A program made the position numbers and the translations under genes. A model generated the notes under the pieces. That model saw only the letters and a list, made by a program, of their open reading frames with translations, searched no databases and was not told where the DNA came from. Shown here piece after piece: positions 20,262-21,352 of a stretch of 64,000 nt of DNA (the first letter of the stretch is position 1; each line of letters begins with the position of its first letter). The stretch spans positions 18,203,351-18,267,350 of the forward strand of contig NC_065544.1 of assembly GCF_932294415.1 (NCBI RefSeq), in the 5' to 3' direction. The stretch comes from Quercus robur (lineage: Eukaryota > Streptophyta > Magnoliopsida > Fagales > Fagaceae).

Positions 20262-20717
20262 GCGAAAACACCATTTTGGTTCCTATTTTCATAACAATCA
20301 ATTTAGTCTATGTTATTTTTAATTTACATTTAATTTGGTTCAACCTATTAACTTACTAACGAAAAATACCTACATGGCAAACTGAATGTACTGTTAGTAC
20401 ACTTTAAGTTTACATGGCAGCTGCAACAATAACATTAAATGCCACATCATCAACATTTGGAAAATTTTGATTTATCATTTTTTTAAGAAAAAAAATTACT
20501 TATGGGACAAACATAAACCCAAAAAAATCAAACCCAAATCCTCAAATCTCAGTTCTTCAAGCACAAATCTCTCATCATTCAATACCAAATCAATCAATCA
20601 ATAGCATATATGAAATCCAAAAGTTCATTTTCCAATTCCTTGGTAACAATTATGTTCAGCAAAAAACACAAAAATCAAACATAAACAACACGTTCTTTAA
20701 GCAAATCCCACCACTAA

Positions 20718-20756
<39 letters not shown>

Positions 20757-21352
20757 GAGTTTGTTTCAAGTGGACGTTGAGACTGATGTGGCTATGGTGG
20801 GACAATCTAAGAAGAGAACGTTCAAGAAGTTTAGCTTCAAAGGAGTTGATCTGGATGCTCTTATCCACATGTATACCAATCAGCACATTAAGCTCTAGAA
20901 GGATATATGAGAACATAAAGTAATCAAATGGATCTGATTTGTATTGTTTCAAAGGGGTTTGAAACGCAAGTTTGTGGCCCTCATCAAGAAGCTTCACAGG
21001 GCCGTGGCCCGTAATTGCTTTTTAACCACTTGATTTTATTTTTGGATTTGCTTAAAGAATACACTGGAAGTGGATTTGGGTTGGATTTTTCTGGGTTCAC
21101 GTGCTTCCTAGATTTTTTTTTTTTTTTTTCTCTAAAATTGATAAATCAAATTTTTTCCAAATGATGTGGCATGTAATATTATTATTTTAGTTGTCACGTA
21201 AGCTTAAAGTGTGCCAACAATACACATTATTTGTCATGTAAGCGTTTTCCATTAGTAAATTAACGGTATGAACCAAATTGATTATAAATTATAAATAACA
21301 TAGACCAAATTGATTAATATGAAAATGTAGGAACCAAAATAGTATTTTAACC
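20262..21352 (+). mobile_element. Mutator-like element carrying ribosomal protein S15 gene pieces (Pack-MULE)
   Basis: The left end (20262-20490) and the inverted right end (about 21125-21352) match over roughly 230 bases. Both contain TTTTGGTTCCTA, CAATTT.GTCTATGTTATTT, ACACTTTAAG and a GCCACATCAT block, so this is one unit with very long terminal inverted repeats. There is no transposase. The middle holds plus-strand ribosomal protein S15 (uS19) sequence plus a (CT)n tract. Host poly-A/T runs at both edges prevent reading a 9-bp target duplication. Long TIRs, captured gene pieces and lack of transposase are the definition of a Pack-MULE. Confidence 0.75.
20770..21011 (+). pseudogene. Captured cytosolic ribosomal protein S15 (uS19) fragment
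   Basis: Two stretches are readable. At 20770-20895: [20 protein letters not shown] followed by [20 protein letters not shown]. At 20947-21011: FQRGLKRKFVALIKKLHRAV. In the S15 family these flank a short Arg-rich FHARARRR-type segment, which here is replaced by about 50 bases containing stops. Only the N-terminal third of the protein (the intact family is about 150 residues) is present. A (CT)n run at 20720-20754 may be the parent gene's 5' UTR. It is not expected to make S15. Confidence 0.8.

Follow-up and report, generated by a model that had tools for sequence, protein, structure and literature searches.

A probable Pack-MULE family in Quercus robur with part of a ribosomal protein S15 gene, and an apparent second capture of nearly the same gene stretch

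The closest described systems to the element reported here are the Pack-MULEs of tomato, PM-ZIBP among them. According to the cited sections of that study, terminal inverted repeats (TIRs) of MULEs typically measure 100-500 bp, tomato Pack-MULEs are most abundant at 1000-1200 bp, acquired sequence has been noted within extended TIRs, and the mechanism by which MULEs pick up genes is 'yet to be understood' (PMC3310237). Going by the same sections, our element shares with the tomato elements its dicot host, size, TIR length, gene fragment, multiple copies and, at the level of the family, a target-site duplication of 9-11 bp, but differs from PM-ZIBP, which has mostly tandem TIRs and a fragment of a zinc-ion-binding protein gene, in its single TIRs and ribosomal protein donor, and from the tomato Pack-MULEs described there in the presence of a second family with almost the same piece of gene. 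A length of ~1.1 kb with such TIRs is not unusual in the light of those sections, and the preliminary description of our locus, which had held a dicot example with very long TIRs to be noteworthy, went too far in this respect. Pack-TIRs, attributed to gap filling or FoSTeST, are similar in that template switching at short shared sequences was proposed and in that they are multi-copy with separate target-site duplications; they were described in animals, and the cited passages of that paper call an application to plant Pack-MULEs worth exploring (PMC8277862). Gene acquisition by fusion of neighbouring insertions is proposed in the cited part of PMC8903248.

We analysed a 64-kb stretch of Quercus robur DNA (C40:18203351-18267350, hereafter the window) against the genome of 785.7 Mb in 42 contigs. 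On sequence comparison, the element whose parts are listed in Table 1 is a Pack-MULE, the class first given to it, with captured S15 sequence borne out by its copies, their target-site duplications and a donor gene on C6. We read it as a non-autonomous element that would have captured DNA of a C6-like S15 gene by repair-linked uptake, been mobilized in trans by a MuDR-type transposase to at least five copies, and undergone decay of its cargo, and we put the probability of this reading at about 0.93.

Table 1. Parts of the S15-carrying element and other features located in the 64-kb window
Feature	Position	Strand	Remark
Whole element (probable Pack-MULE)	20262-21352	+	1091 bp; termini GCGAAAACACC / GGTTAAAATACT
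A-run (12 A) at left end	20250-20261	.	candidate copy of 9-11 bp target-site duplication
A-run (15 A) at right end	21353-21367	.	candidate second copy of target-site duplication
Left TIR, outer part	20262-20543	+	~282 bp; from arm/arm and copy alignments
Inverted piece of S15 intron 3	20544-20692	-	C6 gene, L035 ~2273-2124 backwards; first ~25 bases least certain
16-bp segment identical to inner TIR stretch	20693-20708	+	inverted partner 21044-21059; also in sibling arms
3' part of S15 intron 1	20709-20769	+	(CT)n at 20721-20754; homology of 20709-20720 to intron 1 weak
S15 exon 2 remnant	20770-20901	+	part of exon end deleted; boundaries from comparison with L035
S15 intron 2, shortened	20902-20945	+	from copy and donor alignments
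S15 exon 3	20946-21003	+	from tblastn, BLAST and sibling alignments
Start of S15 intron 3	21004-21033	+	overlaps inner end of TIR
Right TIR	21022-21352	-	up to 331 bp; innermost part common to elements without S15
Phloem protein 2 domain	6520-6981	-	
Reverse transcriptase fragment	16648-17007	+	Pfam on single frame
Exo84_C (exocyst) gene exon	25215-26297	-	
tRNA gene	30453-30525	+	only Rfam match in the window at gathering threshold
Copia-type gag	54431-55843	+	zinc knuckle just under cut-off

Alignment of 20265-20569 with the reverse complement of 21045-21348 gave 241 identities, 51 mismatches and 25 gap columns, at a score of 240 compared with a best of 36 among 200 first-order Markov randomisations. 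The inverted ends reported in the preliminary description do align, but their length had been put too low at ~230 bases (Table 1). At well over 100 bp the arms are long TIRs of the MULE type, and they are only ~78-83% identical to each other. Neither BLAST nor nhmmer found another long match to either arm in the 64-kb window (the best other BLAST match spans 32 bases), and the TIR pattern gave 0 matches to viral contigs. A candidate tandem sub-repeat in the left arm was dropped, its score of 39 lying below the 95% level (43) of 1000 randomisations. Two stop-to-stop frames of at least 100 aa overlap the element and neither matches Pfam at 0.001, which agrees with the original reading that no transposase is encoded inside. 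The flanks of this copy match at 11 of 11 bases, but both are A-runs on the same strand, and because such a match is homopolymeric it proves little by itself as a target-site duplication.

The cargo was identified by a tblastn search of the window with a uS19 protein, which gave one credible match (20773-21003, E=3e-16; all others had E of 5 or more), and by phmmer searches of the two translated blocks against PDB sequences, in which 34 distinct uS19/S15 sequences matched at 1e-9 or better and the best chain was 8auv_Y (3.4e-20), presumably of a plant uS19. Pfam assigned 0 families to these short blocks, and the second block alone matched nothing by phmmer at 0.001. The two S15 (uS19) coding blocks and the (CT)n tract of the preliminary description were thus recovered, the blocks being two exons split by a shortened intron 2, and what had to be revised was their place in the gene. 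The cargo begins within intron 1, includes exon 2, intron 2 and exon 3, breaks off in intron 3 and has no ATG; it holds exons 2 and 3 and not, as had been thought, the start of the gene. Similarly, the supposed pyrimidine-rich 5' leader of the parent is intron 1: in the S15 genes on C6 and C3, GTGAG and a CT-rich intron come straight after the ATG, the window tract aligns with this intron, and a leader or TOP-like element was rejected on these grounds. Given that introns are retained, the capture took place at the DNA level. S15 similarity reaching past the TIRs had been named as evidence that would speak against a capture, and it does not pass the inverted ends.

BLAST aligned the window element with the C6 gene locus (L035) at 1713-1890 (tail of intron 1 and exon 2; 78%), at 2027-2131 (exon 3 and the start of intron 3; 76%) and, on the other strand, at 2243-2124 of intron 3 (window 20569-20699; 72%, E=5.7e-15), placing a second piece of intron 3 in inverted orientation in the left arm. 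Two siblings aligned locally with L035 on the plus strand at 1703-2153 and 1703-2198, where the far ends are low-complexity TIR sequence, and on the minus strand at 2250-2118 and 2273-2118. The exact 16-bp match at 20693-20708 was reached by none of 2000 first-order Markov randomisations. In the window element the 3' splice site of intron 1 reads CAA, compared with CAG in the C6 gene, and a 7-nt insertion in the start of intron 3 is confined to this one of the five copies. The inverted intron 3 piece had gone unmentioned in the preliminary description.

The C6 gene consists of an ATG, the CT-rich intron 1 directly after it, exon 2, intron 2, exon 3, intron 3 and a last exon; its ATG, exons 2 and 3 and last exon are without stops, and the gene is apparently intact, with introns. 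The element therefore carries a fragment of a host gene of which an intact copy stands elsewhere, as is expected of a Pack-MULE. Within the interior and protein searches of the genome, a last exon was given only by the genes on C6 and C3, and in all five copies the exons are closer in identity to the C6 gene, from whose exons they differ by 8-18%, than to the C3 gene. By these alignments, the probable donor of the window-type cargo resembles the S15 gene on contig C6.

Searching the genome with the interior (20570-21043) yielded at least 12 places, from 9 first-look candidates. Five are elements with S15 cargo, namely the window element and those at C40:24.22 Mb, C35:15.14 Mb, C3:0.36 Mb and C41:28.90 Mb, the last internally deleted; the others are three places in the S15 gene at C6:40.226 Mb, two in that at C3:20.63 Mb, and one each at C41:35.0156 Mb and C37:32.794 Mb. 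The uS19 protein gave at least 14 matches, from 23 candidates, adding loci on C1 and C39. All five copies align end to end at 84-90% pairwise identity, with an internal order common to all. At exact ends, the C3 copy is flanked by a target-site duplication of nine in nine bases (TATATTTAT), the C40:24.2 Mb and C41 copies by eight in nine and the C35 copy by only seven in nine, and among 200,000 random pairs of 9-mers drawn from the window, 0.034% agree at 8/9 or better and 0.32% at 7/9 or better. The 9-11 bp duplication characteristic of MULEs is accordingly found at the level of the family, and several copies with different duplications attest to movement after capture. Because part of the exon 2 end and parts of intron 2 have been lost in common by the copies, these deletions predate amplification.

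Among four copies, identity is 742/834 (89.0%) in exon 2 and 299/330 (90.6%) in exon 3, compared with 821/885 (92.8%) in the inverted intron 3 piece and 275/296 (92.9%) in intron 1, so that divergence in the exons is no smaller than in the captured intron pieces. In-frame stops are present in all five S15-carrying copies. On these comparisons the cargo seems not to have been kept as coding sequence. That it encodes an S15 protein is very improbable, the stops and the decay of the exons arguing against one. A separate observation concerns the TIRs, which differ among the four copies about twice as much as the cargo (349/2033 vs 198/2127, for the selected parts 20310-20470 plus 21150-21330 and 20570-20690 plus 20770-21003), mostly by transitions in both. 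This difference is unexpected under simple co-transposition and counts against our preferred explanation; exchange of TIRs among family members, or methylation, could account for the faster divergence.

The TIR belongs to a much larger family. A genome-wide search with the terminal 30-mer at up to 3 mismatches found 745 tips (362 forward and 383 reverse), and 0 with the reversed-pattern control; siblings with other cargo, which the preliminary description had proposed to look for, are represented by five elements without S15. Two tips 7 kb apart led to L052, an element of 7010 bp with T-runs on both sides and TIRs 652 and 687 bp long (91% identity), whose outer ends match those of four sibling copies over at most 115-158 columns (78-83%) and those of the window copy over 92-118 columns (75-80%). 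Three of its four translated frames match, to DBD_Tnp_Mut, MULE and SWIM domains, and L052 is likely the autonomous type, with a putative transposase. The window element is thereby tied to the autonomous MuDR/Mutator elements through outer TIR sequence in common with an element that has MuDR-type transposase domains, and differs from them in having no transposase itself. PF10551 occurs at 150 or more places in the genome; comparing by eye the 150 places listed with the tips listed, which are part of the 745, we saw none within 10 kb of a tip.

Of eight other TIR loci examined, two have a clear duplication at exact ends (L044, which has no S15 cargo, 9/9; L045, 8/9), four (L046, L047, L049 and L050) show long duplication matches only with shifted ends or in A/T-rich runs, and for L048 and L051 no credible pair of tips was found. 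L049, L050 and L052 sit in A/T runs like the window copy, the last two specifically in T-runs, and such insertions of some family members hint at a target preference. L044, L046, L048, L049 and L050 form a sibling subfamily with the same TIR and another, non-S15 cargo of ~300 bp largely in common. In these five the TIR extends deeper inward than one would judge from aligning the two TIRs of the S15 elements with each other, and most arms end in TGGTTAA. Among the S15 elements this inner end belongs to the right arm; in the left arm the inverted intron 3 piece is followed by only 16 bases of inner TIR. Twelve bases at the inner TIR end, TTAACCATTTGA, are found in three S15 copies out of five, the window copy having changes at this point, and also in intron 3 of the C6 gene, where the captured stretch ends.

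Given this structure, we propose that a long-TIR MULE acquired genomic DNA of a C6-like gene, namely the stretch from intron 1 to the start of intron 3, exons 2 and 3 and intron 2 included, together with a second intron 3 piece in the opposite orientation. Uptake would most likely have accompanied the repair of a break within the element, in the course of which the repair strand would have jumped between templates where these have short sequences in common. The composite would then have been moved by a MuDR-type transposase from longer relatives such as L052 to at least five places, its cargo decaying after the spread. Capture of DNA in two orientations, the short shared sequences and a later spread with target-site duplications can be read directly from the alignments; the template-switching step is argued from those short sequences because no junction is fresh, the copies differing from each other by 10-16% and from the C6 exons by 8-18%.

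Two of the interior matches belong to a second capture family. The element at C41:35.0156 Mb is 1128 bp long, with termini GGGTAAATTGCAAAG, TIRs of ~360 bp (349 identities, 9 mismatches) and a perfect 10-bp flanking duplication; its sibling at C37:32.794 Mb, 95% identical to it, is 1143 bp long, with 335 identities and 20 mismatches between its TIRs and a perfect 9-bp duplication. Neither has TIR similarity to the window element by BLAST, and from TIR length and duplication size we assign the pair to a putative MULE-like family. The cargo of the C41 element reaches from intron 1 to intron 3 of the C3 gene at 94% over 443 columns, and because it is so similar to its donor the junctions can be read more closely here. 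About 51 bp of intron 3 of the C3 gene (L036 reversed, ~2245-2295) lie in both arms of this family; in the left arm, a short stretch in direct orientation that resembles the exon 3/intron 3 border comes next, before CT-rich intron 1. In both families an inverted intron 3 piece adjoins the left TIR, and the left breakpoint of the gene sequence falls in the CT tract of intron 1 or close to it. It thus appears from the alignments that two families with different ends independently took nearly the same part of two paralogous S15 genes.

A tentative extension of the preferred reading, which we consider possible and would not favour, is fold-back copying: a broken MULE end would anneal to the opposite TIR, copy into the captured gene DNA and switch template at repetitive tracts such as the CT tract of intron 1. 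Host introns would in this way become TIR and the TIRs would lengthen, and the short-intron 5' half of S15 genes would be a recurrent target through its CT tract. Growth of TIRs by capture is not new as such, because the cited sections of PMC3310237 note acquired sequence in extended TIRs. A related and rather unlikely idea is that the innermost TIR of the window family is itself S15 intron 3 DNA copied to both arms, and that the non-S15 siblings descend from an S15 carrier. It agrees with the right arm, which continues beyond exon 3 with intron 3 sequence collinear with the C6 gene, with the exact occurrence of the twelve-base stretch in innermost TIR and C6 intron 3, and with the second family, in which such a process is seen; against it, the overall similarity score was reached by 138 of 3000 randomisations and by 3 of 618 real 200-bp windows, and five non-S15 siblings have the segment with no S15 cargo.

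Fusion of two neighbouring MULE insertions around the donor gene, which then moved as a unit, is the Pack-TYPE model that the cited part of PMC8903248 proposes for several superfamilies, but we regard it as improbable here, given that the two pieces in the cargo come from a single gene and face opposite ways, that the copies have deletions in common, and that BLAST of the window element against 5.5 kb around the C6 gene gave S15 matches only and no TIR. Reverse transcription of a spliced S15 transcript and its insertion into a MULE, which an A-run at the 3' side might recall, has next to no likelihood: introns 1, 2 and 3 are all represented in the cargo, which is decisive, and the A-runs flank the entire element, beyond its TIRs on either side. 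Equally negligible is an origin with no transposon involved, in which a pseudogene region folded back or was segmentally duplicated in inverted orientation. The low identity of the arms would suit it, but five copies that have their ends in common and are dispersed over four contigs, convincing separate target-site duplications in three of the five, the genome-wide tips and a relative with transposase domains together count decisively against it.

In the titles and abstract openings of the Pack-MULE and Mutator-like element papers listed by literature searches, a body from which subscription papers are mostly absent, no S15 capture was found. Two apparently independent captures of nearly the same S15 stretch, from paralogous donors and by families with different ends, make it possible to test template-switch models by comparing breakpoints across related species. 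Nothing points to a functional consequence for the S15 gene itself.

Elsewhere in the window, the reverse transcriptase fragment is one that we take to be LINE-like, and judging by eye from the sequence near 21.8 kb, the Pack-MULE may lie just beyond the 3' side of the Exo84_C gene. A third S15 copy, of the C3-gene type, occurs in L031 (C1:21.316 Mb, ~1529-1784; 81%) and L032 (C39:46.574 Mb; 87%), extending from the middle of exon 2 to intron 3; no long inverted ends were found around it. It lies within a 2.6-kb block common to C1 and C39 at 85%, where one frame of 164 aa is still open, and the opposite-strand frames on both sides of it resemble, to our eye, what we assume to be a Rab-type GTPase.
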